Source: a bacterium (lineage in GTDB: Bacteria > Vulcanimicrobiota > Xenobia > Xenobiales > JADMJV01). Taken from it: DNA of 54,309 bases. This document shows positions 3,016 through 30,726 of this stretch, piece by piece. The notes beneath the pieces were generated by a model, which had not been told where the DNA came from, did no database searches, and worked only from the letters and a program-made list of their open reading frames with translations. The position numbers were made by a program, and so were the translations under genes. Position 1 is the stretch's first letter. Each line of letters starts with the position of its first letter. Location: NCBI GenBank assembly GCA_030149525.1, contig JASBRJ010000008.1:1-54309 (forward strand), read 5' to 3'.

Positions 3016-4129
3016 CGACGGAGCAAAGCAAAGCTTCGTATTGTCTGGTGATCTCTTGGACTGAGAACTCTTCGGCTCGTTGAACCGCCGCTTCACCCAG
3101 GCGTTGAGCCAGATCCTCATCATTGAGTATTCGCTTCAAGCCGTGGGTGAGAGCCTCCACTGAGGAGTGTTCCACTACCAGGCCGTTCACTTCATGACTC
3201 ACGATCTCCGGCGGGCCATAGTCGCAGTTGGTCACCACGACCGGGAGTCCGCACGCCATGGCCTCGATGACTACACAGCCGAAGCCCTCCCATCTTGAGG
3301 AGAGAACGAAAGCGGTGGCCTTGCGGAAATATTGGGACACGTCGTTACAGAAACCGGGCATCTCCACTCGGTCCTGCAGTCCCAGTTGTTGAATCTTTTG
3401 GGTGAGGGTTTCCCGCTCTTTGCCCTCACCGAGAATGACCAGCTTGGCGGTGGGGTGGTTCAATTGGGCGAAGGCCTCCAGGAGCAGATCGAAGCCCTTT
3501 TGGTAGACCAGGCGCCCCACCGATAAAAACATGGGAGGCTGAACCGGCGTGCGTTCCACCGGTTGAGTCTCTACAGGGTTGTAGATGACTTGAATTTTCG
3601 AGGGGTCGACCTGGAAGTTGTGGGCCAGACCTTCTCCCAAGCCTTGAGAAATAGCCAAAATCTTATCGGCTCCGCGATAGGTGACGCCCGTTATCCACTG
3701 GCGAAGTTTGGCAAGTATTGGGTTGGAGACGTCGTCTTTGAGCATTCGAAGAGTGTTGTTGCCCTCTCGGAGAATCCAGCCGGTCTGTTTTCGACCGTAG
3801 ATTGTCAGGGCAAAGTGGGCGGCGATATTCATGCTCACAGTGAGGCTGAGAACGACATCGGGCTGGAATTCCTTCAGCATCCGGTTGTGGGCCTTGAGGA
3901 TGTCCACAACCAGTCGAGGATAGGAGGTGGAGCCCAGTCTGGGAAGGTGAGCTTGCAGCAGATCATCGGGGTGAACTCTCTCTAAGAAGGGGCCTTCGCT
4001 CCAAAGGATACCAACTTTGGGCTGGAATCGCTCCCGGTCGATATTCTCCATCAGTCTCACCACGGTGCGCTCGGCACCGCCCCCGGCCAGATTGGCCAGA
4101 AGAATGAGGACTTTCACCGGTTTAGGCAT
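3005..4129 (-). CDS. GT4-family (GT-B fold) glycosyltransferase
   Basis: Transfers a sugar from a nucleotide-sugar donor, probably to a lipid-linked or surface glycan; the actual substrates are unknown. The 374-residue chain begins with the N-terminal Rossmann signature VKVLILLANLAGGGAERTV. The C-terminal donor domain shows FLSVGRLVYQKGFDLLLEAF, LVILGEGKE and the GT4 EX7E motif in SSRWEGFGCVVIEAMACGLP. Length and motif order are normal for the family. It starts at ATG 4129, five bases after the stop of the upstream glycosyltransferase gene, so the two are an operon. It is convergent with the ABC exporter. Confidence 0.92.
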   Translation of the reverse strand: MPKPVKVLILLANLAGGGAERTVVRLMENIDRERFQPKVGILWSEGPFLERVHPDDLLQAHLPRLGSTSYPRLVVDILKAHNRMLKEFQPDVVLSLTVSMNIAAHFALTIYGRKQTGWILREGNNTLRMLKDDVSNPILAKLRQWITGVTYRGADKILAISQGLGEGLAHNFQVDPSKIQVIYNPVETQPVERTPVQPPMFLSVGRLVYQKGFDLLLEAFAQLNHPTAKLVILGEGKERETLTQKIQQLGLQDRVEMPGFCNDVSQYFRKATAFVLSSRWEGFGCVVIEAMACGLPVVVTNCDYGPPEIVSHEVNGLVVEHSSVEALTHGLKRILNDEDLAQRLGEAAVQRAEEFSVQEITRQYEALLCSVVKP

Positions 4130-4134
4130 GTTAG

Positions 4135-5022
4135 TTAGTCCCGCAGCTTCCAGTGATCGCGGAAGTAGCGGTAGAGGGCGGCGTTGTTGTGTCCGTCTTT
4201 GTTCTCGCCGTGAACAAGGCTGGGGGTTCCCATGGCACTCAGAGAGCTGATTCTCACAAACTGAATCGCGCTGGGAGCGACGTAGCGAGAGATCCCTTGC
4301 TTGGCCAGAGTGCCGCTGACAAGGATGTCGTCAACGAAGAACGCTTCCGGTGGCGCGTCCGCGTCTACCAGGATGTTGTCGGGGAAGAAGCCCGGACGGA
4401 CCATAAAGCCCGAGGCCCCCTGGAGAATCGCCACCGGAGTCGGTTGCTCAATACCCGAGGCCTGAACGTAGATTCTGTCCTTGTGAACATCCCCCGGGGG
4501 AACTTTCCACCCTCGCATACACACCGCGCTGTGGGGAAACTGTTCGCCTGTTGTGGTGAGCGCCTCCACCATGGTTTTGGGGTAGATAGTGTCGTCGTCC
4601 ACGATGATGATACGAGCATCGGGAATCGACTCGAAGTCGCGAACGGTGGGGAGCAGTTTGGTGATAGGCCCGTGATCCTCAGGGCAACTCACAAGACTTA
4701 AAGGGGCGCAATTCTGCAGAAATGTCGGCACCGTATAACCGCACTTCTCCCGGCGACTTTCGCTGGGTAGATTGAAGCGGATCCCGTCCACCCGAACCGT
4801 CTGATCCAGCAGCGATTTGATGGTGGGAGCGGTCTTTTTTATACGGCTGGGCAAGGTGGTGAGAGAAATCCACACCGGCGTCTCCCCTGCAGCCCGGGGC
4901 AGATCATAATACCTGTCGGCAAGCGAGGAGAGGTCTTGAAAATGAAGCTTCAGGTATCGCAGCAGTTCGCTCACGGCCCTGAATGCGGTCTGGCTGAGGT
5001 CTCGCACGACCGCCTTTTTCAC
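4135..5022 (-). CDS. GT-A-like glycosyltransferase (family 2/DUF-type)
   Basis: About 295 residues if started at GTG 5022. The core resembles a GT-A fold glycosyltransferase: VWISLTTLPSRIKKTAPTI near the N-terminus, the metal-binding motif IIIVDDDTIYPKTMVEAL, and the acceptor-side motif FFVDDILVSGTLAKQGI. Proteins with this ISLTT.P.R pattern are annotated as uncharacterised family-2-like glycosyltransferases. The frame stays open upstream to 5199, but that part runs through the divergent TPR gene, so I choose the internal GTG, which has GAAGG about 16 bases upstream. It precedes the GT4 gene by five bases, and the two probably build one glycan. Confidence 0.75.
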   Translation of the reverse strand: MKKAVVRDLSQTAFRAVSELLRYLKLHFQDLSSLADRYYDLPRAAGETPVWISLTTLPSRIKKTAPTIKSLLDQTVRVDGIRFNLPSESRREKCGYTVPTFLQNCAPLSLVSCPEDHGPITKLLPTVRDFESIPDARIIIVDDDTIYPKTMVEALTTTGEQFPHSAVCMRGWKVPPGDVHKDRIYVQASGIEQPTPVAILQGASGFMVRPGFFPDNILVDADAPPEAFFVDDILVSGTLAKQGISRYVAPSAIQFVRISSLSAMGTPSLVHGENKDGHNNAALYRYFRDHWKLRD

Positions 5023-5064
5023 TGGGTTGGGGCTGATACCTTCGCAGGAACGACGAGAACGACG

Positions 5065-5922
5065 ATGCACATGGATTCTATGACCGCAAAAGCTTGGAAC
5101 AGTAGAGGCCAGGATGCTCTCGACCAAAACGACTATGCCGAAGCTATCGAGTGCTTCGGTAAGGCGATTGAGATGGAACCTGAGTGGTCGGTTCCTCACT
5201 ACAATCTGGGGCTAACTCACAAGTTTTGCAAGAACTGGGAAGAGTGCCGGGAGCACAATCAAAAGGCCCATCAACTGGACCCGGAGGATGAGGCGGCGAT
5301 TTGGAATCTGGCCATCTCATCGGTGGCTGTGGGCGATTGGGAAAGCGCTCGAACGGCCTTTGCGGGGATCGGGCTTGAGGTGCCTGACGAGCCAGGGCCG
5401 TGGACTTTCAACTTCGGAATCACCCCGATTCGAGTGAATCCCGAGGAGCATCCGGAAGTGGTGTGGGCCCGTCGATTGGATCCCGTGAGGGCCAGCCTGG
5501 TCAATGTTCCCCTGCCTGATTGCGGCAGGCGCTACGGAGATATCGTGCTTCATGACGGCGCTCCCAACGGGTATCGCCTGTTAGGAGATCGCGAAGTTCC
5601 GGTCTTCGACGAACTGAAGCTTCTGGAAGTTTCACCGCTCCACACCTTTGAGGTTATTTTGGAGTCCACCGAGTCGGTGGAGAGCCTTGTCGCTCTCATG
5701 GAAGAACATGAACTGCAGGCTGAGAACTGGTCTAAGTCGGTTCGATTCTTGTGTCGGGCGTGCAGTGAGGGGCGGCCTCACGAAAGTCACGACCACGACC
5801 TGGAGGAGCCGCCCGACGATCTCATTCGATTGGGCGTGGCCGCCACGGACCAGGCGCTCATCGAAGAGGTGGTGGGCCGATGGAAGGCGGGCTCGGTGAA
5901 AAGGCTAGAAAGGGTCCTTTAG
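5065..5922 (+). CDS. TPR-repeat protein
   Basis: About 285 residues. Residues 5-110 contain roughly three tetratricopeptide repeats (AWNSRGQDALDQNDYAEAIE, WSVPHYNLGLTHKF, EAAIWNLAISSVAVGDWESA). The C-terminal 170 residues form a beta-rich region of unknown family (GDIVLHDGAPNGYRLLGDRE) followed by a short segment with two cysteines and several histidines (FLCRACSEGRPHESHDHD). TPR parts usually mediate protein contacts. The start could be ATG 5065, 5071 or 5080; 5065 is used. The open frame continues further upstream but crosses the divergent glycosyltransferase gene. The last four bases overlap the convergent deacylase gene. Confidence 0.8.
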   Translation: MHMDSMTAKAWNSRGQDALDQNDYAEAIECFGKAIEMEPEWSVPHYNLGLTHKFCKNWEECREHNQKAHQLDPEDEAAIWNLAISSVAVGDWESARTAFAGIGLEVPDEPGPWTFNFGITPIRVNPEEHPEVVWARRLDPVRASLVNVPLPDCGRRYGDIVLHDGAPNGYRLLGDREVPVFDELKLLEVSPLHTFEVILESTESVESLVALMEEHELQAENWSKSVRFLCRACSEGRPHESHDHDLEEPPDDLIRLGVAATDQALIEEVVGRWKAGSVKRLERVL

Positions 5923-7022
5923 GTCAGATCGTAGACGAGTTGATCCACGATCCTGGAGTAGGTTTGGAGACTCTCTAGATCCAGCCGCTCGTCATGGGCG
6001 TGCATCCCTCCGCCGCAAGGGCCCCAGCAAATAGACGGAGTGCCGATAGCGCTGTAGTAGCGGGCGTCGGAGGCGAAGTGTTCGGAGAACAGTTCCGGTT
6101 CTTTGCCCAAAATTTTGGTGCCGGTGGCCAGGGCGCTTTGCAGCTTGGGGTTGGCCTCATCGGTGAAAAGCGGAACAGCCAGTTGAATCAGCTCCAGCTC
6201 GCTGTTGTGGAACGTCTTTTTTAACCAGTCCATGATTTCGTGGGGATCGTCCTGGGGGATATAGCGAATGTCGATTTTGCACTCCACCCTGCCGGGGACC
6301 CGATTGTGAGAGTTTTCACCCACGTCGATGCCTGTGGCCGTGGCGGTGGTTTGCCAAACCGGTTGAGCCGGCACGGGAAATCTGCCGGTGAGGGTGTGGA
6401 GGCCGCGAACCAGGGCGTTGAGCGGGTTTTGGCAGAGCCACGGACGGGCCGAGTGGCCGGGGTTGCCTTCCAGGCGCATCTTGACCCACAAGACCCCTTT
6501 GGCCTGATTGCAGACCTGGAGGTCGGTGGGCTCACCGGCCACGAAAAGATCGGTGTCGAAGCCCTGATGAACCATAACCTCAACACCGCGGTGGCCGCCG
6601 ATCTCTTCATCGCTCACGAACTGCACCTGAAAGTGAGGGCGCTCCTCCACAGGTAGCTGAGCCACTTTCCTGAGAAGCTCGACGTAGACCGCAACGGACC
6701 CTTTCATGTCGTAGGTGCCCCGGCCCCACATGAGTCCGTCGTCTCGGATTTCCGGCGTAAACTGTCCGGGAGTCGCCGTCACCACATCCACATGTCCGTT
6801 AAGGATGAGAGGGGCCGCCCGACCTTCCCGAGTACCGATGATGAGGCTCTGATAGCCTTCGTGTTCGAAGATTTCCGAGTGGAAGGTCTCCCAGTTAGGG
6901 ATCATCTCTCGAATAACCTGAAGCACCTGATGGCAGGTTTCCCGGTCTTTGGAGACCGAGGGGATTTTGACAAGCTTTTCGGTTGTGGCCCGGAGATCTT
7001 CCAGGGGCGTGGTAGAAAGCAA
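5919..7022 (-). CDS. M20-family deacylase (ArgE/DapE type)
   Basis: A zinc-dependent amidohydrolase that probably cleaves an N-acyl amino acid or small peptide; substrate unknown. The 367 residues carry the co-catalytic metal motifs: NGHVDVVT, then GRGTYDMKGSVAV, then the catalytic acid in FVSDEEIGGHRG, GEPTDL, and a C-terminal HAHDERLDLESL. The start is TTG 7022, one base after the stop of the tubulin-like gene, with TAGGAT in the preceding stop region as ribosome-binding site. That makes it the last gene of the five-gene zinc-ribbon/vWA/tubulin operon. A metabolic hydrolase in such an operon is unexpected. The 3' end overlaps the TPR gene by 4 bp. Confidence 0.88.
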   Translation of the reverse strand: MLSTTPLEDLRATTEKLVKIPSVSKDRETCHQVLQVIREMIPNWETFHSEIFEHEGYQSLIIGTREGRAAPLILNGHVDVVTATPGQFTPEIRDDGLMWGRGTYDMKGSVAVYVELLRKVAQLPVEERPHFQVQFVSDEEIGGHRGVEVMVHQGFDTDLFVAGEPTDLQVCNQAKGVLWVKMRLEGNPGHSARPWLCQNPLNALVRGLHTLTGRFPVPAQPVWQTTATATGIDVGENSHNRVPGRVECKIDIRYIPQDDPHEIMDWLKKTFHNSELELIQLAVPLFTDEANPKLQSALATGTKILGKEPELFSEHFASDARYYSAIGTPSICWGPCGGGMHAHDERLDLESLQTYSRIVDQLVYDLT

Positions 7023-7023
7023 A

Positions 7024-10000
7024 TTACATCCTATCCAAAAGCTCGCGCTTTTTCGTCTCAAATTCTTGTTCGGTCAGAATGCCTTCGTCGCGAAGTTGAC
7101 CCAGCTTCTTGATCTGATCCGGAATCGAGGCCGTGCCGTTTCCGCTTTCTTTGGCCGGTGCGGCTGCTGGAGGCGGACCTGCCGATGCAGGCGGAGCCGC
7201 CGCAGCAGGCTTGGCTGCGGTAGGCGCGGCATCGGCTGAGGTGGCGGCGTTACGGGCTTCGGTGAGTCCCCGGTCCGAACCCAGGTAAGTATCGATGAGA
7301 CCCAGGCGATAATCGAGGGCTTCCTGGTCCAGATTCTGATCGTAAAGGCTGTTGCGGTAAGCGAGAATGGCCTGGGTGAAATCCTGGTCGCCTAGACTTG
7401 AGCGCTGCTTGGCGATCTGTTTCTCCACGTAGTCGGGGACCCCGTCCGGCTCGGCTTCGTAGAGTTGACCGGCGATGGTCTCCAGGTTTCCGGAGAAGCG
7501 AATCACCCGACGCAAACCTCCTTGAGTGAAGTCCAGGCGATACCCCGAAGAGTCGGCCTCGGGCTCGAAGACTCCGATAGTGGGAATGATGCCCAGAAGG
7601 TAGCGGGTGGCCAACCGGTCGATGTCTTCCTTGGCCGCTTTAACGATGGGGAGGTAGTGCTCCGACTTTCCACCCAGGTGGATGGGAAGGCGTGACTTTT
7701 CCAGCTGTCGCTCGTAGGCTTGCTGAAGAGCCTTGAGGTGGGTCCAAAGGCGAATGGGGAAGGCTCCGTACTCGCGATAAAAGATCACCTGATAGCTGTT
7801 GGAGAGGGGGATGAGCCGCTCGTCGTGGTGGCCTTCAATCCCCTCGATGTACTTGTCGCAAAGCTCGGTGAAGCGAGCCTGAGCGGCCTTGCCCTCGGTG
7901 AGAGCACCGGCGAACCCAACCATGGTCTGTTCTTTGCCGGGGTTGTCTTCGAACTTAGAGTCGCTTCGGTCGAGTTCTAAGAACGGTGTGGACAGACGGG
8001 CCACCTGTTGGAAGGTCTCAGACGCTTGCTGTTCTTGCATGAACGCTTTGACCACGTCGGTGTCTTCCAGTCGCCCATGTTGGGTGACGGTTCGGGTAGC
8101 CAGATTCCAAAGCTCTTTTTTCATGCTGGCGTAGGACACGCCTCGACGTTCAAGACTCATGAGTCCGCTCTCGCCGCTTGTGGATTCGTCCACGCTTGAA
8201 GTGAGATAGTCTTTGATCTCACGATCGATAAAGCGGTTGGAGAGCTGTCGGAGCTCACTGCCCATAATCGATTTATAAGCCGTCGCCACCGGGTCTTGAT
8301 TGGCCTCTTCGTTGCCGGTGAGGGTGTTGATCCATTTCCCATTGATGGGGATGGAGGTTCTGGCTGCGGTTTCGGCGTCGGCTTTCAGTTCATCTTCCAG
8401 GCCGCTCAAGAAGAGATCGAAATTGGTGGTTCGGTCCACCAGTTCTTTAAGTTTGCTTAAGAGAGCGTCCATGACAGCCACCAGAGCGTCGTCGGCGGTG
8501 AGTTGCTCTTCGAACATCAACTCCCAGAGAGTGCGGGCGTCGCGGGCATAACGTCCGTTGAACGCCTCCTTGAAGGCGGTGCCTCCCCAGAACGACAACT
8601 TCAGGAGGGGATCACCGGCAATCGTCTCCAGCTCGCGACGATGGCGCTTGAGTGCCGCGGTGCCCTTTCGGATCCGACCGGACAGCTCTTCATGGCGAGC
8701 TGCTAACTGGTCTCGTTGCTTTTGTAGAGTGTTGCGAAGGCTCTCCACCACGGCCTGGGTGGCCAGAAGCCGCTTGCTGGGGTCAGAGAGGAGCTTCTCC
8801 ACCAATTCCACCAGGATGGGCAGAGCTCTTGATTGGAGCTTTCGAGAGTTGAAACGGATCTGGGCAGCCGCAGGGCCGCTTTTACCGCCTTCCCCCTGAG
8901 CCACGACTAGAGTCTGCTCCACTTCCTTTTCCAACTTGCGGATGCGGTCTAAGACGGGTCGACCGCTCAGTTCCTTGAGGTCGTCGAGTTGGGAAGTGAA
9001 CTGTTCTACCAGAGACAGACGACCGTCGGCGGGCTCCAGAAGTCGTTTCTTGAGCCCGGCTTCGTCTAACTTCTGCTCTTTTAAAAAGTCCTTGAGATAA
9101 GCCGGGTCCAGGTTAAAGTCTTGCGGATTGTCCCGATATTTTCCAAAGCGAAGCTCGGCGATGGTGTCGGAGAGAAATCTCGCACCACATGAGGTGGAGA
9201 AGTTTCTCAACGGAATCTCGATGGAGGAGAGTCCGAAAGTGAAGAAGTTCTGGTTGCAACCCCGTTCGTCGGTTGCGGCCAGATGCTTTCGAATATTGTC
9301 TCGGTTGGAAGCGATCTTCTGAGAGAATTCCGAGGTGGCCTCGAGCATGATGCGCCGCCCTACCATGGACACTAGAGCACGAGGTCCGTCCAGGGTGCTT
9401 CGGCCGCTCTGGGTGGAGACCAGGAAGGTGAAGTCATAGGGTGGCTCATGGGATTCGAAGCTTCGACCGTCGGGGTATTCCACTTTGTAGCGACTGCTGT
9501 TGTCGCTGTAGTGATTCAACTCTCGCAAAGCTGCATAGGCACTAGCACGCGTGTCCACACCGGAGCGCGTCCGACCGGCCAGAGGCACAGCGAAAATTCC
9601 GGTGGAAATGGGGCGCTGCCCGGCCATCATGGCCCTCACCGTATCTTCCCTGAACAGGTAGCCCATGTCGATAAACATTCCGGAACCGGTTCCACCGATG
9701 AGAGAGCCCACAGTGAAGATTCGAAAAGGCTTTTCTCGGATTTCCACGCCCTCGGCTCCGATGGATTTTAGGTATTCCAAGGTGGAGCGGCGAGAGTCGG
9801 CGGAGGTGATGCTATTCACCGCGTCGTTGATGGCAGGGACCACTTTGTCGATGTTGGCCAGTAAAGCCAGCCGACCGATCTGACGGATCTGGCCGGCCCC
9901 GGCTACCACGCTCGGATGGACCAGCGACTCTTTCTCAAGCCAGGTGGCAAGAGATGGGTGATGAGTGTGAAGATTCTCCCGGATATCGGCCATTTTGGTG

Positions 10001-10236
10001 TCGGAGACGGTGAGGTGCACATGCTCTGCAGCACTGAAGGCGAGAGCCTCACTCAGAGGATCCCGAGAGGCCGACTCTTCGTCTATGGCGTCGTCGGTAT
10101 CGAAGGCGAGAAAGCCGATGGTTTTCAGTTCACGATAATTGCCGAAGCGGGCCGAGAGTCGCTGGCGTACATCGAGCATGATCGATTTGCCGGTTCCCCC
10201 GATCCCCACCACCAGTGTGGGAAAAAATGCGGTCAA
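7024..10236 (-). CDS. Tubulin-like GTPase-fold protein (Tubulin_2 type) with SHOCT tail
   Basis: A 1070-residue protein with a FtsZ/tubulin-like N-terminal domain. The first glycine-rich nucleotide loop is LVVGIGGTGKS (residues 9-18), and the tubulin signature loop appears as VGSLIGGTGSGMFIDMGYLF around 181-186, a form typical of the large PF13809-like tubulin homologues. Residues about 460-545 look coiled-coil (LRNTLQKQRDQLAARHEEL). A long alpha-rich region follows, then an Ala/Pro-rich linker and a C-terminal SHOCT motif (IKKLGQLRDEGILTEQEF). It starts at TTG 10236, overlapping the upstream stop as TTGA, with GGAGG eight bases upstream. It probably binds GTP and may polymerise; its partners are likely the membrane proteins encoded upstream. 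Confidence 0.85.
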   Translation of the reverse strand: MTAFFPTLVVGIGGTGKSIMLDVRQRLSARFGNYRELKTIGFLAFDTDDAIDEESASRDPLSEALAFSAAEHVHLTVSDTKMADIRENLHTHHPSLATWLEKESLVHPSVVAGAGQIRQIGRLALLANIDKVVPAINDAVNSITSADSRRSTLEYLKSIGAEGVEIREKPFRIFTVGSLIGGTGSGMFIDMGYLFREDTVRAMMAGQRPISTGIFAVPLAGRTRSGVDTRASAYAALRELNHYSDNSSRYKVEYPDGRSFESHEPPYDFTFLVSTQSGRSTLDGPRALVSMVGRRIMLEATSEFSQKIASNRDNIRKHLAATDERGCNQNFFTFGLSSIEIPLRNFSTSCGARFLSDTIAELRFGKYRDNPQDFNLDPAYLKDFLKEQKLDEAGLKKRLLEPADGRLSLVEQFTSQLDDLKELSGRPVLDRIRKLEKEVEQTLVVAQGEGGKSGPAAAQIRFNSRKLQSRALPILVELVEKLLSDPSKRLLATQAVVESLRNTLQKQRDQLAARHEELSGRIRKGTAALKRHRRELETIAGDPLLKLSFWGGTAFKEAFNGRYARDARTLWELMFEEQLTADDALVAVMDALLSKLKELVDRTTNFDLFLSGLEDELKADAETAARTSIPINGKWINTLTGNEEANQDPVATAYKSIMGSELRQLSNRFIDREIKDYLTSSVDESTSGESGLMSLERRGVSYASMKKELWNLATRTVTQHGRLEDTDVVKAFMQEQQASETFQQVARLSTPFLELDRSDSKFEDNPGKEQTMVGFAGALTEGKAAQARFTELCDKYIEGIEGHHDERLIPLSNSYQVIFYREYGAFPIRLWTHLKALQQAYERQLEKSRLPIHLGGKSEHYLPIVKAAKEDIDRLATRYLLGIIPTIGVFEPEADSSGYRLDFTQGGLRRVIRFSGNLETIAGQLYEAEPDGVPDYVEKQIAKQRSSLGDQDFTQAILAYRNSLYDQNLDQEALDYRLGLIDTYLGSDRGLTEARNAATSADAAPTAAKPAAAAPPASAGPPPAAAPAKESGNGTASIPDQIKKLGQLRDEGILTEQEFETKKRELLDRM

Positions 10237-10595
10237 GACTCAAGCCTCCTCTTGGGTGTCCAAAAGACCATGGCGCCCCACAGCAAGAAGAACAGTCCCC
10301 AGGCCAACCAGACCCAGTAGTTCTTAGTGAGAGCCACAAAAATCACTTGCCAGAGCCACCAGTGAAACACGATGAAGGCGACCAGCAGACTGCTCAGGTA
10401 GGCCAGTCGCATAGCGCCGGGCGCTTGTTGCTTCAGGCCGCGATAATACATGGGGAAGAAGATCAGTTGGGTGCCTAGGATGAAGACACAAACGATGGTG
10501 ATAATAAGCCACCAGACCGAGCTGTCGTAGTGGTCGAGGACGACTTTGATCTTGTCCCAATCGAAGGCCCAGCCCGACATTTCCTCTAGTTTCAT
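10233..10595 (-). CDS. Small three-TM membrane protein
   Basis: About 120 residues, with three hydrophobic helices rich in Trp and Phe: WWLIITIVCVFILGTQLIFF, then LSSLLVAFIVFHWWLWQVIF, then VWLAWGLFFLLWGAMVFW. A short basic C-terminus (TPKRRLES) suggests a cytoplasmic tail. No known family is recognised. ATG 10595 is chosen because GGTGG precedes it by about seven bases; an upstream in-frame start at 10625 would overlap the vWA gene. The stop overlaps the TTG start of the tubulin-like gene by 4 bp, so the two are probably translated together. It may anchor the tubulin-like protein. Confidence 0.8.
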   Translation of the reverse strand: MKLEEMSGWAFDWDKIKVVLDHYDSSVWWLIITIVCVFILGTQLIFFPMYYRGLKQQAPGAMRLAYLSSLLVAFIVFHWWLWQVIFVALTKNYWVWLAWGLFFLLWGAMVFWTPKRRLES

Positions 10596-10612
10596 GCTTT
10601 CACCACCCGTTT

Positions 10613-12178
10613 CTAAGACCGCCAATCTCCGCCGGAAGAATCGCCTCCTGAGTCGATGCCGGAGCCGAAGTGTTCCGCCTCTTCTGCGCCGGGGCCCGAA
10701 GCGTCCTCTTTGACGAAGGTAAAGACCTGTTTGCGATTGCGCTCGTCGATGAAGGTACAGGTGGCCGAGGTGATCAGAGGCTCACCAGTTTCTCCTACGC
10801 TGTATCCCTCGTCCGTTTCCACTTCCACAGTCCCTTCTCTAAGGTTACTGTTGACGAAAATTTTAGCCTTCCCAAAGGGTAAACATCGAACCGAAGCTAT
10901 CGTTTCTTTCAGCTCACCGGAAGTGAAAAGAAGATCGTTCTCCACTCTGGCTTTGCCTCCCAGTCGGACCGATTTGCCCTTTGGCAGGAGAAAGCTCTCT
11001 TCAGAGTCGGGGCCGATCACGCGGATCTTGATCGACTTCATACTGGCAAAATAGAGCGCTGCTCCGACGACCAGGAGAATGATGAAGGGGATGATGGGGA
11101 AGGAGCCGCTCTCTTTTTCCTCCGGCTCGGGAGTTGGAGTTGCCACGGGCTTCGGTGTCTGGGCGGGGGCCGCTTGAGTGGGAGTTGGGGTCGGAGCTTG
11201 AGTGGCGGCGAAGGTCACTTCCTTTTCCGCCGTTCTCACCTTCCCGTCGGCAAGTTCGGCCTGGGCGAAAAGAAGATGAGACCCGGGTTGGATGTCCTTG
11301 AGCGACCAGCTGGCTCGGCCGTCTTGAAAGCTCGTTTTCTGAGAGTCTTTGCCGTCTACCGTGAGGGTGGCCGAGCGAGGCTCCGAGGAACCCAGGAACT
11401 GCACAGTCACCTCGGTGGAGTCCCCTTCTACCCGGCTTGAGGAGGGGGCGATAAACTCCAGCGTCTGGCTCCCCACTCGTCGGGCGGCCCAGGCCAAGCG
11501 AGGATTGTCCAGATCGATGGCGCCGTCGGGTCCGGCAAGCGGGCTGGGGTTGGGGAAGCTGTTGGTGTAGAGGGTGAGCCACAGATGAGCCACCCCCTTG
11601 GATTGAAGCGGGATGGTCTCGGCGGTGGAAGCCACCTGGGCTTCCAGGTTTTTCAGGCGCTCTCGTTCGTCGGTACCCATCTCGATTTCGGAATTGTTGT
11701 CGGAGAAGAGCATGACCACGGTGTTCTGTGAGGTGCCCACTTCCTGAGCTTTCTCCAGGCTGAACAGCTTGGCCCGGCCAAACACGGTGCCCTTTGCGCT
11801 TGACCGGGGCAAGCTCAAAAGGCCTTCGTTGAGAGAGGCGATCTGCTTATCGATCTCGGCAACTTGAAGCTGCTGGGGTGTTTGGGTGTTGGCCAAAACC
11901 GAAGGTTTGTCGGCAAAACCGAAGATGTACACCGAGTCTCCCGGTGCGGCGTATCGGCTCAGAATAGTCTGGGTGAGCTTTTTAGAACGGTCGAACTCCA
12001 CCGACATGCTCTTGCTGGTGTCGAAGCCGATGATGAAAAGCACAGGACGGTCGGAGAAGTGCTGAATGGAAGTGAGCTTATCCAGCACTCTGGTATAGGC
12101 TTCATCCTCCTGGCAAATCCCAACGGTGCTGAGCGACAAGAGAAGCAGAAGGTATGCAAAAATTCGATAGATTCTCAT
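10613..12178 (-). CDS. Secreted-then-anchored vWA-domain protein
   Basis: 521 residues. A signal peptide (RIFAYLLLLLSLSTVGICQ) is followed by a von Willebrand A domain. Its metal-ion-dependent adhesion site is DTSKSMS at 53-59, with later VMLFSDNNSE and the TPQ/SS turns typical of the fold. Next come a beta-sandwich region, a Pro/Thr-rich linker (TPTPTQAAPAQTPKPVATP), one transmembrane helix (PIIPFIILLVVGAALYF) near 360 and a C-terminal beta-rich domain. The predicted topology puts vWA in the periplasm and the C-terminal domain in the cytoplasm. It begins at ATG 12178 with a 4-bp ATGA overlap with the upstream gene. It could transmit an external signal to the tubulin-like protein; that is inference. 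Confidence 0.85.
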   Translation of the reverse strand: MRIYRIFAYLLLLLSLSTVGICQEDEAYTRVLDKLTSIQHFSDRPVLFIIGFDTSKSMSVEFDRSKKLTQTILSRYAAPGDSVYIFGFADKPSVLANTQTPQQLQVAEIDKQIASLNEGLLSLPRSSAKGTVFGRAKLFSLEKAQEVGTSQNTVVMLFSDNNSEIEMGTDERERLKNLEAQVASTAETIPLQSKGVAHLWLTLYTNSFPNPSPLAGPDGAIDLDNPRLAWAARRVGSQTLEFIAPSSSRVEGDSTEVTVQFLGSSEPRSATLTVDGKDSQKTSFQDGRASWSLKDIQPGSHLLFAQAELADGKVRTAEKEVTFAATQAPTPTPTQAAPAQTPKPVATPTPEPEEKESGSFPIIPFIILLVVGAALYFASMKSIKIRVIGPDSEESFLLPKGKSVRLGGKARVENDLLFTSGELKETIASVRCLPFGKAKIFVNSNLREGTVEVETDEGYSVGETGEPLITSATCTFIDERNRKQVFTFVKEDASGPGAEEAEHFGSGIDSGGDSSGGDWRS

Positions 12179-13527
12179 AATTCAAAACAAAACATGCTGC
12201 CGTCGCGGGAGGTTCCGAAAACGCGATTGTTTGCGTAGCTGAGAGCCCCCATAGGCGACGAACTGAGCCGCGGTCGAATAGCCTCTTCGTCGCAACATAA
12301 GTAGCGCCCCTCCGTGCCGTAAAATAGACGCTCTCCAAGCTTCAGGGGGCGAGTTGTGGGCGTTCCGGCGAGATCGCAAACAAAAGAGAATTTGTCGCCC
12401 GTGGTGGAGCAGCTTCTGGCAGAACCGTCGTTGAGAAAGAGAAAGATGCGCTGATCCTGAGCCGAGTAGAGAGGGGGGGCGATCACCGTGGCGGGAAGTT
12501 CACTCACTACGAACCGGTTGTCCTCAAGATAGGCGAACTTGTTGCCCGAGATCAGAATGAAGCGGTCGGCGTAGAGGCCGTAGTCCAGGCTCTCCTTGAG
12601 ACCGATGTCTTCCATCATCCGGACTTCGTTTTCGTTTCCGATGGTCATCAGGTAAGCTTCTCCGGCGTCGGCGGAAGCTAAGAGAGCCTGGTTGGAGCCG
12701 TCGGAGAGAAGTAGAGTGTCGTCTCCCTTGAGAACCTGAGGATTGGGCTGATCTTCGGGATCGTCGGGGTTCAGGGTGGTAACGAATCCGTCTTCGGCGA
12801 CGCGCACCACGCCTTTATCACCCCAGGCGAAGAGACACTTTCTCAGGGGAGCAAACCCGCGAGGGCGGCCTACTTCGTTGACAGGAATCCGTTTCCCGAT
12901 GGAGGGGCTTGAGGTCATGTCCAATTCTGAGATGGAGGTACTCCCGGCGATGAAGAACTTTTTTTGCCAACTGAAGGGGGCACAGGGAGACTCTTCTCCC
13001 AGGTCCAGTCGAGTGAGACAGACGCTGGTTTCTCCGAAGTCTCCGGCGTCGCCCGCTTGAGGAGCCCCCCGTTCGGCCCATAGTTCCACCACGCCCGACT
13101 CCTGGACGGAGAGGATGAGGCCCAGAGTATGGAGATGAGGCCAACGAATATCCGAGCCTGCGGTGGCGCCGCCTGTCCAACCCGGCCGGGGGATCTGATC
13201 GGTTGAGACCACATTCCGGCAGAACTCCAACTCCTGCTGATGAAACTCGTCGGCACCGAAGCGGGTGGTCCAGAACCTGCCCTTGTCCGGGCAGTAGTTG
13301 TTCACACAGGAGGTTCGGTCCAGATGGTAGAGGCGCCCGCAGGCGCGACACGACCAGAAATCATGATCGCAGGCCCGGCATGTCATAAACGGATCCCGGG
13401 GCGTTTCCAGCTGAGCTGAACAGTGAGGACACGGCTGTTTCAGAGCCAGTCCGCACCGTGTACAAAAATTGTGGGCAGAATCTCGCCCGGGTTCCTGACA
13501 CTGAGGGCAGACCAGACCGTTCGACAT
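12175..13527 (-). CDS. Triple zinc-ribbon protein with propeller-like body
   Basis: 450 residues and first gene of the operon. The first 80 residues hold paired cysteines C7-C10/C22-C25, C33-C36/C50-C53 and C60-C63/C74-C79, which form three consecutive zinc ribbons. The rest alternates beta strands in blocks such as GLILSVQESGVVELWAERG, FFIAGSTSISELDM, LFAWGDKGVVRVAEDGFVTT and NRVFGTSRDGSMFCFEL, resembling a PQQ/WD-like beta-propeller. No catalytic residues are evident, so it is likely a scaffold. ATG 13527 has GGAG eight bases upstream. The stop overlaps the vWA start (ATGA). Confidence 0.78.
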   Translation of the reverse strand: MSNGLVCPQCQEPGRDSAHNFCTRCGLALKQPCPHCSAQLETPRDPFMTCRACDHDFWSCRACGRLYHLDRTSCVNNYCPDKGRFWTTRFGADEFHQQELEFCRNVVSTDQIPRPGWTGGATAGSDIRWPHLHTLGLILSVQESGVVELWAERGAPQAGDAGDFGETSVCLTRLDLGEESPCAPFSWQKKFFIAGSTSISELDMTSSPSIGKRIPVNEVGRPRGFAPLRKCLFAWGDKGVVRVAEDGFVTTLNPDDPEDQPNPQVLKGDDTLLLSDGSNQALLASADAGEAYLMTIGNENEVRMMEDIGLKESLDYGLYADRFILISGNKFAYLEDNRFVVSELPATVIAPPLYSAQDQRIFLFLNDGSARSCSTTGDKFSFVCDLAGTPTTRPLKLGERLFYGTEGRYLCCDEEAIRPRLSSSPMGALSYANNRVFGTSRDGSMFCFEL

Positions 13528-13672: not shown

Positions 13673-14698
13673 TTGATAGGCTTCTTCACCCTTTTTCTGG
13701 TGTCGTCGGGTCTTGCCGGGACTGGTGAGATTCGGGACAGAAAGTGTCCGGTTTGCGAGGAAAGTCTGAGCGTCACGGTTCTGTTCTCTTCTAACAACGC
13801 GGGTGGAGCCGACCCGGATCTCATGAGGCGGGCCGGTGGGGCGTTCCCTTTGATCGTTGAGCCAATTCTTTGTTCTAAGTGTCATTTTGCTACCTGGTCG
13901 GTGTCAAGCTTGGATGAGCCGGTGCCGGAGAAGCTGAAGACGGCCTTGTTAGCCCAGGAGTCTCCTTTCGTCGTTCCTGAATTCGTGCCCATCGTTCCCA
14001 GCGGACCGTTGCGGGGTCCCTACACCGAAGGGTTGGATTCAAAGCAAACGTCACCGGCCTGGGTTCGGTATGATCTCCTCGCTCAGCAGCTTTCCTTTAC
14101 AGGCGAGTCCGCCTGGCTGAGGTATCAGGCGGCCCATAATGCGGCCTGGGCAGTTCGATTGCGGGAGAACCCTCTGCAGGAATTCCTTTTCGATATGACG
14201 CGAGAGCAGTTCACCGAAGCTCTCAAAGGTATCGACAGTAAGAAAGAACGTGACAATCCCGCCGCCGATCAGATAGATGCTGCCAGAAAAATCCTTAAGA
14301 ACGACGCTCTGACCAAAGACCAGGCCGTGGTGGCAGGATTCCTGTTACGGACTCACGGCGAGTTGACGGATCTGGAAGAGGCCTGGCCCCGGATTGTGAA
14401 AGCTATTGGTGAGGAGCATCTGACCTCGAAGGTTCAGAAATCGATCGCTCTGGAAAGGGTTTATCTCGGCAAGGCTCTGGCCTGTGTCGAGGAACTGCTG
14501 TTGGACCCACCGGAACAAGTCCAACCGGGCGTACTTCACTATCTGAAAGGCGAGTTCCACCGTAGACTCAACCAACCGGCGGAAGCCCGGGAGGCCTACG
14601 CCAAAGCGCTTGAAGGCGAACTTCCCGACTGGTTAAAAGACTGGGCTAAGGGACAACCGGAACTGCTCTCTGTGGTCAAACCCGGCCCCCCCGAATAA
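13673..14698 (+). CDS. DUF2225-like exported zinc-finger/TPR-like protein
   Basis: 341 residues, divergent from the zinc-ribbon operon. It starts with a likely signal sequence (MIGFFTLFLVSSGLAG). Next comes a DUF2225-like cysteine module: RKCPVCEESLSV, a conserved DPDLMRRAGG stretch and ILCSKCHFATW. The C-terminal half is helical and ends with a TPR-like hairpin (YLKGEFHRRLNQPAEAREAY). The function of the family is not known. The frame starts at TTG 13673 with GGAAGA about ten bases upstream; no better ATG lies nearby. It lies next to the other multi-cysteine protein of the divergent operon. Confidence 0.7.
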   Translation: MIGFFTLFLVSSGLAGTGEIRDRKCPVCEESLSVTVLFSSNNAGGADPDLMRRAGGAFPLIVEPILCSKCHFATWSVSSLDEPVPEKLKTALLAQESPFVVPEFVPIVPSGPLRGPYTEGLDSKQTSPAWVRYDLLAQQLSFTGESAWLRYQAAHNAAWAVRLRENPLQEFLFDMTREQFTEALKGIDSKKERDNPAADQIDAARKILKNDALTKDQAVVAGFLLRTHGELTDLEEAWPRIVKAIGEEHLTSKVQKSIALERVYLGKALACVEELLLDPPEQVQPGVLHYLKGEFHRRLNQPAEAREAYAKALEGELPDWLKDWAKGQPELLSVVKPGPPE

Positions 14699-16467: not shown

Positions 16468-16998
16468 AAATAAAGGCTCCAGACACGAGAAAGAAGCCCG
16501 TCCCCGGCCTATCTCTTTAGGGCCGAGAAAGACGCGGAAGCTCCCCCTCGATGAATTTCTTCTACGGCTAATTTCTGCGATATACAATCAAAAACCTTCA
16601 GAATTAGTGAAAAAATGTTCACTATTTTAACTTTGCAGAATACAAGACCTAGGAGCCGTCCCCATCGACCTCGGTTCGAAACCCCGGCCCAGGAGTTCAA
16701 CCGGAAAACCCATCATCGCAAGAGGCGGCAGAGTTGATTTTTTGACTCGTAGCGCGTTGCTTACAGTGGAGTTTCCGGTTGCGCTTCTGAGGATTCGACC
16801 GTGGACTCGGACCCCGCCCGGGTCCGATTTCCTAAGCCGATGGTCCGTTGGACGTTGAGTTCGACTCCAAAGTCATTACGCAGTCACACGCAACCTGCTA
16901 ACCCCATCCCTGAAGCGCTCGACTTTCACTTTCGTGCGACTCCTCGCAGCATGAGTCCGTTGCCGTCAAGAATCTTTAAATGGTATCGTTAGCCGGTA
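16468..16998. other. Non-coding stretch with one palindromic repeat
   Basis: No supported gene lies between the HNH nuclease start and the small ORF at 16999. The short frames present lack ribosome-binding sites and plausible protein composition. The stretch contains the palindrome at 16808-16826. A GGTTCGAAACC sequence near 16673 resembles a tRNA T-arm but has no matching cloverleaf. Confidence 0.5.
16808..16826. repeat. GC palindromic repeat, intergenic copy 1
   Basis: CGGACCCCGCCCGGGTCCG has a 7-bp perfect stem and a CGCCC loop. Flanking bases (ACT before, ATTTC after) are shared with the copy at 15524, so the repeat unit is longer than the palindrome. Confidence 0.6.
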
Positions 16999-26556: not shown

Positions 26557-27930
26557 TTGAGAAGGACGGTTTTCAAAAAGAGCGTGACCAGGCTGTTGGC
26601 TTTGATCCTGATGTTGTTGAGCGGCGTGGGATTGACGACCTCCGAACCTGAGAGCCGTGAATTGGAAGGCGAAAATCGGGCTTATGTTTTGGACCGTGAG
26701 GCGGCCTTGGGTACGGTTCTGGTGGTGCATTCCGTATTTCAGGATCATCAGACGAGCCTTCCCCTGGCCCGCGCCCTTTGGAGGTCCGGATTTCGTGCCG
26801 TTGTGGTGGAGCTTCAACCTGGGAGTCCGTTCTCTGACTACGTTGAGAGAGTGAAAGAGCTTGCGAGTCGCTTCAAAAAGCAAGGCAAAGTCTATGCCGT
26901 AGGGCATTCCATGGGAGCCGACCTCATTTGCACCGCCGCCTCTCAAGAAGCTCTCTTTGACGGCCTTGTTGCTCTTGGTTTTCCGGTTGACCGAAGCTCT
27001 GTTAGGAGCCCCTTGCTCTTGGGAGCGGGCGCATGGGACCAAGTTCATACGCGAGATTCCCTCACGGATGCGGCCCAGGGGGCGAAGTTCGTCATGTCCC
27101 CTTTCTCCGATCATTCCCAGGAGACGCTGGACCCTTATCTCCAGTGCGCCGCGGTGCAGTTTTTAGGTGGGGAGATGAAGGGGCCTTGGTGGAGCAAGGT
27201 TTTGGCTCAGGGAGTCTTCTTTCTCAGTTTGACATTTCTAGGAGTCAGGCTTGTGCCCCGAAGCCGGACCAGAGTACTGTTTGGAATGAGCCTGGGAAGC
27301 CTTGTCTTGAACGCCGTTCGGCCTCACTTCATCTGGTCGACACTCGCCGTCTCTCTGTTGGTTTCTTCGGCCTGGAAGAGTTCCGGCGAGTCCGGCAAGG
27401 ACAGTTTTAAAGCCTTTCTCTTTCTGATGACAGGCATCGGACTCTCTTGGCTTCTTCACGGTTACCAAAGCGTGCTTGCCGAACCTGCCTCATTGCTTGG
27501 CCTGCCGGTCGCTCTCCTCAGTTGGCTTCCCGTTCTAGCCTGTCGCCTGGTGAACATGCTTACAGACCCTGTGCATGGCCGAATCCTTCCCCTCATGGTG
27601 CTGCTTCTCGGTTCTGAGGCTGTAAGGCCCGGGCTTCTTCTGGGCGCGCTCAGGCGAGGGATGTCGTCGTTTCTCAAAAGAGTCGGCACTCTTGAGTTCC
27701 AATTGACGCAGAAGCCGGGTCCCGCTCAGTTGGGCCTTTTCCTGTTTCTTCTATTAGGGGGAACGTTGGCCTGGAAGAATGTGCTCAGTGCGGGCTATGC
27801 ATTAGGGACCAACGACTTAGGCAGGCTTGCCTGGAAAATGACGGCGCTCATTCTCTTTCCCCTGCTCACCTGGCTGATGCTAGTGGGGCTTTTCAGTCGA
27901 TCGCCTTCTTCGAGAGATCCTCTTTCTTGA
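26557..27930 (+). CDS. Alpha/beta-hydrolase fused to a multi-spanning membrane domain
   Basis: 457 residues. A first hydrophobic segment (LLALILMLLSGVGLTTS) precedes an alpha/beta-hydrolase domain with GTVLVVHSVFQD and the nucleophile elbow VGHSMGADL. A candidate acid/His pair follows in SPFSDHSQETL. From about residue 215 the chain has six to eight hydrophobic helices (VFFLSLTFLGVRLV, FLFLMTGIGLSWLLHG, LLGLPVALLSWLPVLA). The substrate is unknown; a lipid or cell-envelope ester is possible. The start is uncertain: TTG 26557 opens the frame, and GTG 26584 is an alternative. The 3' end overlaps the convergent PH-like gene by 38 bp. Confidence 0.7.
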   Translation: MRRTVFKKSVTRLLALILMLLSGVGLTTSEPESRELEGENRAYVLDREAALGTVLVVHSVFQDHQTSLPLARALWRSGFRAVVVELQPGSPFSDYVERVKELASRFKKQGKVYAVGHSMGADLICTAASQEALFDGLVALGFPVDRSSVRSPLLLGAGAWDQVHTRDSLTDAAQGAKFVMSPFSDHSQETLDPYLQCAAVQFLGGEMKGPWWSKVLAQGVFFLSLTFLGVRLVPRSRTRVLFGMSLGSLVLNAVRPHFIWSTLAVSLLVSSAWKSSGESGKDSFKAFLFLMTGIGLSWLLHGYQSVLAEPASLLGLPVALLSWLPVLACRLVNMLTDPVHGRILPLMVLLLGSEAVRPGLLLGALRRGMSSFLKRVGTLEFQLTQKPGPAQLGLFLFLLLGGTLAWKNVLSAGYALGTNDLGRLAWKMTALILFPLLTWLMLVGLFSRSPSSRDPLS

Positions 27931-28363
27931 ACAAGAACAACCGCTCGTTGAGGTTCCGAGCCCATTCCTCGGCCTCTTCTCGACTTCTGGTGTAGCAGAG
28001 ATTCTCAAAGCTGTTGTCCACGAAGCGGATCCGAACACCGTCCGAGGTGAATCGCCCCTCGTAGATTTTATCGGCTCGAAACTCTTCGCAGTCGCGGAGG
28101 CGATAAGCGCAGCCTCGCCAGGGAAGGGGGCCGTGGCGAACAGTGACCAGTTCGTCTTCGATATCGATTTCGGTGGAATTGAGCAAATGGGCCAGGGAAA
28201 AATAAGAGAGCATGAAGCTCAATATGAGCACGGGGACCGAGCCAAGAATCCTTCCCGGGTGTTCCACGTAAGCTTCCACGAAGAGCATTCCTATAATGAT
28301 GAACGGGCTGATCAGAAGAGGCAAAGTAAGCAAGGTCCACCATTTGAACCAGCGATAAGTCAA
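27893..28363 (-). CDS. Two-TM membrane protein with PH-like domain
   Basis: 156 residues. Two N-terminal hydrophobic helices (LLTLPLLISPFIIIGMLFV and SVPVLILSFMLSYFSLAHLL) are followed by a beta-rich domain (STEIDIEDELVTVRHGPLPW, CEEFRADKIYEGRF) and a final helix (EEAEEWARNLNERLFLF), the pattern of bacterial PH-like (bPH) domains. It starts at TTG 28363, overlapping the Hsp70 gene stop (TTGA), so it is its translational partner. Function unknown. Confidence 0.75.
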   Translation of the reverse strand: MTYRWFKWWTLLTLPLLISPFIIIGMLFVEAYVEHPGRILGSVPVLILSFMLSYFSLAHLLNSTEIDIEDELVTVRHGPLPWRGCAYRLRDCEEFRADKIYEGRFTSDGVRIRFVDNSFENLCYTRSREEAEEWARNLNERLFLFKKEDLSKKAID

Positions 28364-30726
28364 GACTCGGCTCCGTCGCCCGGACGCAGGTAGTGCATGG
28401 GAAAGTTTTCGACGCTGGTGGAATCTCGGTAGTGGGCGGAAACGCTCAGATCTCCGTACTCGTCTACTTGATAAGAGAGAGTCACCTCCCGGGAGGGACC
28501 GAAGTCCACCCTGACAGGGACTGTTCCCAGTAGAGACTCTTTTTCTTCCGAGTTTCCAAGCACGGCCGAGGGTCTTCGGAAAACTTCAAAGTGAAGAAGG
28601 AACGGAGGGTGAGTCGGGGCGAGAAAGACTCTGGTTCGACGGGCCGTGGGGTAGATAGCACCGGCTTCAACCAGAGTTTGCTCCGGCAGTCCCGGAACTC
28701 GAAGAACGTAGTCGACGGTGAGAACGCGGCGGATTCTGGTGCTCGCCGAGGCAACAGCACCGCGGGATATGGAGGTGAGTCGTGCATTGTCGGTGACCAC
28801 TCTGTCGGAGCCGAACATTCTGGTGAGTAGGCTCTTTACAGGCGGCAAAAACGAGCTTCCTCCCACCAGATAGACCCGATCAATATCGTCGTCTTCCAAT
28901 TGCGCTTCGCGAATCACTCGAGCGCAGAGACCTTCCAGTTTGTCGAAGAAGTGACGCAGGGTCTTGGCTAGTTCGGCGCGGCTCAGAGTGAGGTTCTCCG
29001 CATCATCGAGGGCTTCGGGGCAATGGACCTTGAAGTCCGGTTGAGGCTCGGACCATTTCCTGGAAAGCTCCTCCTTGGTCTGTTTAATGGCTTCGAGCAA
29101 ATGCTGGGAGCGGAGCTTTCTTTTGCCCGGAAACTCCGGCGGCGGCACGGTGCCCCCGCCCGAACCCTGTTGCTGAGTCCACAGAAGTCTACGTAGTTTG
29201 GCCTGCGACTTATCGCTGAGTTTTGAGACCAGTTTGTCGTAAAGGGCCACATCGAAGAGATTGCCTCCAATGCTGAGTCCGGCTTCACCCAGGTTGGTGA
29301 ACTGTCGAAAAAAGTAGCCCTCTTCCGCATCCTGGTCCAGGCGGACCCTCAAGAGAGAAACATCGGTGGTCCCCGCTCCACAATCGAAGACCAGAATCCG
29401 TTTGCCCTCGATCATCTCCGGGTCCTCGGCAGCGTAGAGAAAGGAGACGGCTGTGGGCTCGACTAGAATCCGCACTTCGGCGAAGCCTAGTCGCTCCAGA
29501 ATGCGGGTCATGACCTGCTCGGTTTCGCGACGGGCCTCGCTTGAGGTGCCCGCCGGAATGGTCAGAACAAGGCGGATGTCGGCAGCCGACACCCCTTTGC
29601 CCACAAATCTCTCAAAGTCCGCGCTCTCTCGAACTTTGCGGAAGAGGCGGCGCAAAAAGCCCGCCACCAAAGCATGGAGGTCGTGCTTGATTCGATCTCC
29701 TGTGTTGGGATCGAGAACTTCTACCCAGGCCAGATTGTCGGCCAGAAGCGACTTTAAGTTCCGCAGGTAATTGGGTTCGCCCCGATATTCCGTGGCTTCT
29801 TCGCCGATGACCATGCGGCCGTCGGCGTGTAGGTAGATGTGGGAGGGAAATAAATCTTTGCCGTCCAGTCGGACTTGCTGGATGTCGCCTTCTCCTAGAA
29901 GTGCAACTTTGGAGCTTGAGGTACCGAAGTCGACCCCGAGAACAGGCAGTTCCACTCGAGGATGTTGAAGAAAAAACTTGACCGTGAATCGAAATTCCCT
30001 GTTGTCTTCTTCCGAACGGATGGTCAAGGCAAGTTCGTGTTCCTGGCCCACTGTGAGATCGAGAAGGTGGAGTTCGGCGGCCAGGGGCAAGGTTTCCAGA
30101 GGCGCGAGAGTCATCTTGGACTGAGAGAGGCGCAGATGGTGGCTGGAACTTGTTAAACTCAGATGGAGGTCGGCATGGCCACCATTGCCCAGCCGGAAGA
30201 GTTGGGGGACGGGAAGAAAAGCGACCTGGGCAATCCGACCGAGGTCTCTGAGGGTGCGATCGGCTACCAGATAAGCGGGACTTTGTCGCAACACCTCTAG
30301 AGTCACTCTGGAGGTATCCCAGCACCAGCGGTCCCATAGGCGCTCGTTGTTCAGGCGAGAGCCTTGCTTGGTGGTGTGATGAAGGCGCAGGTGGGCGATA
30401 TGAGAGCTTCCCTCCGGCAGACGCCCTCCGTAGACGATGATTCGCTGTTGGGAGTCCCGGTTCACCGGTAATATGTCCTCGGTGGTTGGGATGCGAAGCC
30501 AGGGAGCGCCGGCGGAGTCGCGGTCCAACTCCCAGCGGATGTGGACCTCACCCTGACCGGTGGGGTGCAGGCGGATGTATCGGTCTTTCACCTCTTCAGG
30601 GAAAACCTTGATCTCATGCTTTCCCAGGCGACCGGTTTGCATCTTGATTCGGCGCTGGGGAGAGCCACACCAGCCGCAAAACTGGTCACCCGCCTCAATC
30701 CCCCTAGTGCAGATAGCACACTTCAC
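28360..30726 (-). CDS. Zinc-ribbon Hsp70/DnaK-like ATPase
   Basis: 788 residues. The N-terminus is a zinc ribbon with C3-C6/C17-C20. Residues 25-260 form beta-rich regions of unknown family. An actin-fold Hsp70 ATPase begins at about 262: phosphate-1 VLGVDFGTSSSKVALL, phosphate-2 VFDCGAGTTDVSLL, and adenosine motif YLVGGSSFLPPVKSLL. The C-terminal substrate domain is short (about 120 residues), so this is not canonical DnaK but one of the fused bacterial Hsp70 homologues. GTG 30726 has TAGGAG six bases upstream. It is coupled to the PH-like membrane protein, suggesting action at the membrane. Confidence 0.88.
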   Translation of the reverse strand: MKCAICTRGIEAGDQFCGWCGSPQRRIKMQTGRLGKHEIKVFPEEVKDRYIRLHPTGQGEVHIRWELDRDSAGAPWLRIPTTEDILPVNRDSQQRIIVYGGRLPEGSSHIAHLRLHHTTKQGSRLNNERLWDRWCWDTSRVTLEVLRQSPAYLVADRTLRDLGRIAQVAFLPVPQLFRLGNGGHADLHLSLTSSSHHLRLSQSKMTLAPLETLPLAAELHLLDLTVGQEHELALTIRSEEDNREFRFTVKFFLQHPRVELPVLGVDFGTSSSKVALLGEGDIQQVRLDGKDLFPSHIYLHADGRMVIGEEATEYRGEPNYLRNLKSLLADNLAWVEVLDPNTGDRIKHDLHALVAGFLRRLFRKVRESADFERFVGKGVSAADIRLVLTIPAGTSSEARRETEQVMTRILERLGFAEVRILVEPTAVSFLYAAEDPEMIEGKRILVFDCGAGTTDVSLLRVRLDQDAEEGYFFRQFTNLGEAGLSIGGNLFDVALYDKLVSKLSDKSQAKLRRLLWTQQQGSGGGTVPPPEFPGKRKLRSQHLLEAIKQTKEELSRKWSEPQPDFKVHCPEALDDAENLTLSRAELAKTLRHFFDKLEGLCARVIREAQLEDDDIDRVYLVGGSSFLPPVKSLLTRMFGSDRVVTDNARLTSISRGAVASASTRIRRVLTVDYVLRVPGLPEQTLVEAGAIYPTARRTRVFLAPTHPPFLLHFEVFRRPSAVLGNSEEKESLLGTVPVRVDFGPSREVTLSYQVDEYGDLSVSAHYRDSTSVENFPMHYLRPGDGAES

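Follow-up and report, generated by a model that had tools for sequence, protein, structure and literature searches.

What would a bacterium do with a tubulin-like protein that is encoded next to a secreted von Willebrand factor A (vWA) protein? The question is raised by an operon in a 54,309-nucleotide contig from the phylum Vulcanimicrobiota (JASBRJ010000008.1 in the assembly GCA_030149525.1; we refer to the whole contig as the window). Five minus-strand open reading frames, running head to tail from 13527 to 5919, encode a zinc-ribbon protein, a vWA protein, a protein with three transmembrane (TM) helices, a tubulin-like protein of the Tubulin_2 (FtsZl1) family, and an M20 hydrolase (Table 1). 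We tentatively favor, at a little less than an even chance, the reading that this locus encodes a GAP1-less form of the vWA/FtsZl1 membrane machine, and that its products work as a membrane-anchored, nucleotide-driven assembly. The vWA/Tubulin_2 core is already known, as it was described in 2010. What seems to be new is a family of Hsp70-like proteins, with a zinc ribbon and without a helical lid, that is tied to Tubulin_2. We call this family ZnR-Hsp70.

Besides the window, we searched the genome that it comes from (8.27 Mb in 398 contigs, of which the window is contig C368) and 149 genomes from the phylum (Eremiobacterota/Vulcanimicrobiota). We also annotated the DNA around the Tubulin_2 genes of relatives, together with 80 named loci. 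Labels of the form Lnnn refer to these neighborhood loci and labels of the form Gnnn to genomes in the sample.

The 1070-residue protein and its tubulin fold

The tubulin-like protein matches Tubulin_2 (PF13809) in Pfam with 226.8 bits (6.2e-67), versus a curated cutoff of 27 bits. It has a GTPase domain (residues 1–357), then a long coiled coil, a C-terminal domain, and finally a SHOCT domain (residues 1040–1067; 33.2 bits, 4e-8, above the Pfam cutoff). The GTP-loop motifs GIGGTG at residue 11 and GGTGSG at residue 181 were both kept in two alignments of relatives. An AlphaFold2 model, made with an alignment of 40 sequences, has a mean predicted local distance difference test score (pLDDT) of 78.2, with long helices at 455–627 and a mostly helical C-terminal part. 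When this model was compared with known structures by Foldseek, the matches at E ≤0.001 were tubulins, and FtsZ and CetZ came just below (probability 1.00, E about 1e-4 to 1e-3). The TM-scores were low (TMt about 0.3–0.46), as the query has several domains and is divergent. Against viral structures, Foldseek found nothing at or below 0.001, and the best matches were phage FtsZ-like proteins; a sequence-profile search of PDB with the tubulin alignment matched its coiled-coil part only. Overall, Pfam and the predicted structure support a real tubulin fold. An initial annotation, made from the DNA alone, had described a tubulin-like protein with a coiled coil and a SHOCT tail and had proposed structure prediction as a check on the fold; the description was right and the fold came through the check.

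The genome has no other Tubulin_2 gene. Its nearest relatives (about 31–35% identical) are from other families of the phylum, while the copies in genomes of the window's own family are about 27% identical to it. In a tree of these proteins, the window protein had no supported placement, and long branches meet.

A zinc-ribbon Hsp70 family adjoins Tubulin_2

About 15 kb from the operon, the window encodes a ZnR-Hsp70 protein and, overlapping its stop codon, a small membrane protein with no Pfam match. The initial annotation suggested that this pair belongs to the same network as the operon. The ZnR-Hsp70 matches HSP70 in Pfam (5.8e-28) and, like DnaK, has a nucleotide-binding domain with phosphate motifs (VDFGTSSS and DCGAGTTD) and a region resembling the β part of the substrate-binding domain (SBD-β). 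Unlike DnaK, it begins with a zinc ribbon (residues 3–20), which is followed by about 240 extra residues. It also lacks the helical lid, because its alignment to DnaK structures (from residue 262 to about 761–769 of 788) ends after SBD-β. Most members of the family retain the Hsp70 nucleotide motifs.

We built a profile from 13 ZnR-Hsp70 proteins (the window copy is one of the rows) and searched the genomes of the phylum with it. There were 16 full-length copies, at 430–715 bits, versus ordinary DnaK proteins at 137 bits or less; the intermediates were four proteins at 230–241 bits and one at 148 bits. By profile score, the family separates cleanly from DnaK, as a family of its own. A second Hsp70-like family, at 230–241 bits, has 1010–1289 amino acids and no match for the ribbon, and is found in the window's own family (G001:C35, G002:C173, G003:C75, and G005:C207). 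Also, three cyanobacteria have canonical dnaK genes about 7 kb or less from Tubulin_2 (L054 4248-6293, L064 4283-6343, and L076 1386-3656).

Tubulin_2 adjoins 12 of the 16 full-length copies, and it is present in 14 of the 16 genomes with ZnR-Hsp70 versus 24 of 149 overall (hypergeometric P = 1.3e-11, ignoring phylogeny). The profile favors copies that are linked to Tubulin_2, because most of its rows were found through Tubulin_2 loci. The four unlinked copies are those of the window, G013, G015, and G016. In G013, the contig breaks after a gene order like that of G010, and in G015 (locus L132), the neighbors of ZnR-Hsp70 include genes for one zinc-ribbon and one vWA protein. In G009, a broken copy adjoins the tubulin gene. 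The sole case outside the phylum is L129, from a Gemmatimonadetes metagenome-assembled genome, in which the tubulin and ZnR-Hsp70 genes overlap. Rare transfer could account for it, or misbinning of the contig, because it was the only match in 395 Gemmatimonadetes genomes (two candidates were scored per genome).

The window copy scores 577 bits, well within the group that is linked to Tubulin_2. From these comparisons, it probably belongs to the same machine as the operon products. The suggestion of a single network is supported because one locus, L135, holds all of the parts in order and because most of the family adjoins Tubulin_2. An M20/M28-type peptidase gene (window 30834-32159, plus strand) diverges from ZnR-Hsp70, so both modules have an M20 neighbor, which is probably due to chance.

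The gene order is conserved at low identity

As published, pairs of vWA and tubulin genes occur widely, and cyanobacteria are among the groups that have them. Within the phylum of the window, the gene upstream of vWA often encodes a zinc-ribbon protein. The order is zinc ribbon, vWA, three-TM, tubulin, ZnR-Hsp70 in L135; the same without ZnR-Hsp70 in L037; zinc ribbon, vWA, tubulin in L032; and zinc ribbon, vWA, tubulin, ZnR-Hsp70 in L039. In L136, L045, and L044, ZnR-Hsp70 comes first and is followed by a zinc-ribbon protein, a vWA-like protein, and tubulin. These similar orders are found in several families at about 20% protein identity, so the gene order is conserved beyond the closest relatives, which was a point that the initial annotation had left to be checked. 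L044 has at least three tandem Tubulin_2 genes after the other three (3918-13029).

Membrane and zinc-ribbon components of the operon

The vWA protein matches VWA_2 just under the Pfam cutoff (1.2e-4) and has a DTSKS motif. The assignment is firm because a profile comparison (hhalign) with 79 vWA domains from Tubulin_2 loci gave 98.8%. The metal ion-dependent adhesion site (MIDAS) is intact, and its residues (D53, S55, S57, and D160) were all invariant in the alignment. The protein is predicted to have a signal peptide, an extracytoplasmic vWA domain, a TM helix near 360–378, and a β-rich C-terminal part in the cytosol, in agreement with the topology first proposed for it. That the cytosolic part is FHA-like remains a guess because the AlphaFold2 model was unusable (pLDDT 43.5); the sole hint is a weak FHA match (0.0033, below the cutoff) in the vWA protein of L117. 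The vWA domain had been placed in the periplasm, which is fair wording: the window includes a TpsB/Omp85 gene, which implies an outer membrane and therefore an envelope with two membranes.

The predicted protein between vWA and tubulin has three TM helices, as expected, and occupies the slot directly upstream of tubulin, as in other loci. We found no homology when we compared it with the three-TM proteins of other loci. A family of proteins with a signal peptide, at least about 130 extracytoplasmic residues, and three TM helices, also encoded directly upstream of tubulin, is homologous across three genome families (last row of Table 1).

The zinc-ribbon protein has six CxxC-type motifs, or three ribbons, and matches DZR just under the Pfam cutoff (1.8e-5). 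It had been described as a triple zinc-ribbon propeller protein, and the ribbons are there. A clear propeller was found only in the relative from L032, which has a zinc ribbon fused to it (PQQ_2, 6.4e-59); the relative from L039 has a weak propeller match (0.002). In the window protein, no propeller was found by Pfam, by single-sequence hhalign, or by a profile search of PDB from which L032 was left out. We did not accept a match of the zinc-ribbon profile to BamB as evidence, since that alignment included L032. The body of the window protein may be a β-propeller. Across the 149 genomes, the zinc-ribbon profile matched only Tubulin_2-type loci, plus one weak ribbon match; this speaks to specificity only, because most of the matched proteins were rows of the profile.

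The M20 hydrolase is a genuine family member (99 bits, above the Pfam cutoff). No counterpart was found in the Tubulin_2 neighborhoods that we searched, so it is a probable passenger and we rejected it as a component. Of the operon as first described, the tubulin fold and the conserved membrane-linked gene set stand, and the membership of M20 does not.

Table 1. Genes of the operon, the ZnR-Hsp70 pair, and three-TM proteins from other loci (positions are in the window unless a locus is named).
Feature	Position	Strand	Basis
Zinc-ribbon protein, 450 aa; three N-terminal ribbons, body maybe a β-propeller	12175..13527	-	DZR, CxxC motifs
vWA protein, 521 aa	10613..12178	-	VWA_2, MIDAS, signal peptide, one TM
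Membrane protein with three TM helices; 120 aa when started at ATG 10595, 130 aa at TTG 10625	10233..10595	-	TM prediction
Tubulin_2/FtsZl1 protein, 1070 aa	7024..10236	-	PF13809, SHOCT
M20 ArgE/DapE-type hydrolase, apparently co-transcribed, probable passenger	5919..7022	-	M20 match
ZnR-Hsp70-like ATPase, 788 aa, probable detached partner	28360..30726	-	HSP70 match
Small membrane protein, two TM helices and a soluble C-terminal part	27893..28363	-	TM prediction
Signal-peptide three-TM family members	L037 4276-5220; L135 7020-7793; L038 2473-3291; L041 10828-11580; L042 6179-6934; L043 10209-10961		

The five genes lie where the initial annotation put them and are spaced about as it described, with two starts adjusted (ATG 10595 for the three-TM protein and TTG 7022 for M20). 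The zinc-ribbon and vWA genes overlap by 4 nucleotides (ATGA). The three-TM gene would overlap the vWA gene by 13 nucleotides if it started at TTG 10625; the more likely start, ATG 10595, leaves a gap of 17 nucleotides. Another 4-nucleotide overlap (TTGA) joins the three-TM and tubulin genes, with AGGAGG ahead of the TTG start of tubulin, and a single base separates tubulin from M20. GC content at third codon positions is alike across all of the genes. Divergent from the start of the operon is a gene for a DUF2225 protein with CxxC pairs and TPR (13673-14698, plus strand), and beside the operon is a gene for a 627-residue HNH endonuclease protein (14704-16587, minus strand), which is possibly mobile. 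An Rfam search of the window gave no match.

Relationship to described systems

The initial annotation stated that no characterized system has this set of genes. The combination is not without precedent: Makarova and Koonin described FtsZl1 with vWA and membrane proteins in 2010 and predicted a role in membrane remodeling (PMC2875224, main text), and the main text of Kaur et al. 2020 (PMC7159879) reports tubulin, vWA, Hsp70, and zinc ribbons in GAP1-N2/DO-GTPase systems, which it reads as conflict systems, and proposes multimeric assemblies of tubulin and Hsp70. Our literature search found no experimental characterization of such systems or of any FtsZl1/Tubulin_2 protein.

The 2010 system resembles the window in its tubulin-like GTPase domain with glycine-rich loops, coiled coil, and helical C-terminal part, and in having TM proteins and an adjacent secreted or membrane vWA protein with MIDAS in the same predicted operon. 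It differs in that its main text names neither a zinc-ribbon protein nor a ZnR-Hsp70; Hsp70, DnaK, zinc, and propellers are all absent from that text. A kinase, a P-loop GTPase, or an OmpA partner, which are frequent but not universal in FtsZl1 operons, were not found among the genes of the operon and the neighbors that we scanned. The GAP1-N2 DO-GTPase systems share a tubulin with a C-terminal coiled coil, an extracellular vWA, zinc ribbons, proximity to the membrane, and in some cases Hsp70. In the main text on those systems, though, tubulin and Hsp70 are non-overlapping themes, whereas here they have common operons. Profile searches of the genome for GAP1-N2 (PF20013) and DO-GTPase2 (PF19993) gave no match, with positive results in a control genome (other DO-GTPase models were outside the genome-wide search), so we rejected membership in a GAP1 system. 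MoxR-vWA systems also center on a vWA protein with MIDAS, but no MoxR-type ATPase was found among the neighboring genes that we scanned. Finally, PADLOC matched no known defense system specifically; its sole match was partial and fell on the Hsp70 nucleotide-binding domain.

What the system might do

In the reading that we favor, the vWA protein would be anchored in the inner membrane, and its MIDAS domain, exposed on the extracytoplasmic side, would bind a ligand in the cell envelope. Its state would be relayed through the single TM helix, together with the three-TM protein, to its cytosolic C-terminal part. This part would recruit the tubulin-like GTPase, which would then assemble on the membrane in a GTP-dependent manner. 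The zinc-ribbon protein might be an adaptor or a scaffold, and ZnR-Hsp70 might be an ATP-driven loader or remodeler of the assembly. The outcome might be envelope remodeling or a response to envelope stress. The contacts between the products, like ligand sensing and the formation of filaments or other assemblies, are all predicted.

Several observations weigh against this reading. The MIDAS is degenerate in the vWA-like proteins of L044, L045, and L136, so the binding of ligands via a divalent ion cannot be universal. Filaments are not assured, because the T6-H7 elements that FtsZ uses were not found in the FtsZl1 family (Makarova and Koonin 2010, PMC2875224, main text). The two ZnR-Hsp70 genes in G015 and G016 are on short contigs in genomes with no Tubulin_2 match, 9 of the 24 genomes with Tubulin_2 in the phylum have no ZnR-Hsp70, and the window copy is distant from the operon. 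Neither the vWA protein nor the zinc-ribbon protein of the window has a close ortholog in genomes from the same family. And the function of the system is something that we infer only.

The main rival is that this is a conflict (immune) system, as proposed by Kaur et al. 2020 (PMC7159879, main text) for the GTPase-centered systems in which tubulin, vWA, Hsp70, and zinc ribbons occur: an invader would be sensed, tubulin and Hsp70 would assemble at the membrane, driven by nucleoside triphosphates, and growth would be restricted or the cell would die. The patchy distribution and strong divergence of these genes fit this idea, and the window encodes a fusion of an nSTAND1 NTPase with an FGE-sulfatase-like domain (50266-52872, plus strand), a combination of a kind known from predicted bacterial conflict systems. 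But about 37 kb separate that gene from the operon, the operon has no recognizable effector, the order of the core genes is fairly constant rather than effector-variable, and, as described above, the genome searches for GAP1-N2 and DO-GTPase2 gave no match and PADLOC gave no more than a partial one. We consider a conflict system unlikely, yet it is the alternative to be taken most seriously.

Rather more doubtful is that ZnR-Hsp70 is a dedicated chaperone for the folding or assembly of the tubulin-like protein and stands outside the machine, with the vWA/tubulin core acting alone. There is a parallel in CCT, which serves tubulin as a chaperone. The ZnR-Hsp70 gene directly follows or overlaps the tubulin gene in L048, L129, L143, L144, and L135, and both the retained nucleotide motifs and the Tubulin_2 genomes without ZnR-Hsp70 would agree with this role. 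A zinc ribbon, a long extra region, and no helical lid would be unusual in a folding chaperone, however, and in L045, L044, and L136, ZnR-Hsp70 is separated from tubulin and lies ahead of the genes for the zinc-ribbon and vWA-like proteins. That the window's ZnR-Hsp70 is unrelated to the operon, so that only the vWA/tubulin core is a system, is improbable: many ordinary metabolic genes lie in the 15 kb between them and the window copy is only about 15–23% identical to the linked copies, but its score of 577 bits (with the caveat that it is one of the 13 rows of the profile) is far from DnaK, and 12 of 16 family members adjoin Tubulin_2.

Implications

FtsZl1/Tubulin_2 proteins are widespread, and few members of the tubulin superfamily have diverged as far. 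Together with its relatives, this locus provides a compact list of candidate parts, with four or five proteins including the lidless ZnR-Hsp70; we found no earlier mention of its tie to Tubulin_2 operons in the main texts of PMC2875224 and PMC7159879. It is also conceivable, though we would not expect it, that zinc-ribbon adaptors hold the parts together in one GAP1-independent complex, in which a membrane vWA receptor is coupled to a GTPase with the tubulin fold and an ATPase with the actin fold (Hsp70-type). If so, this would be a bacterial assembly in which both of the great cytoskeletal folds work together.

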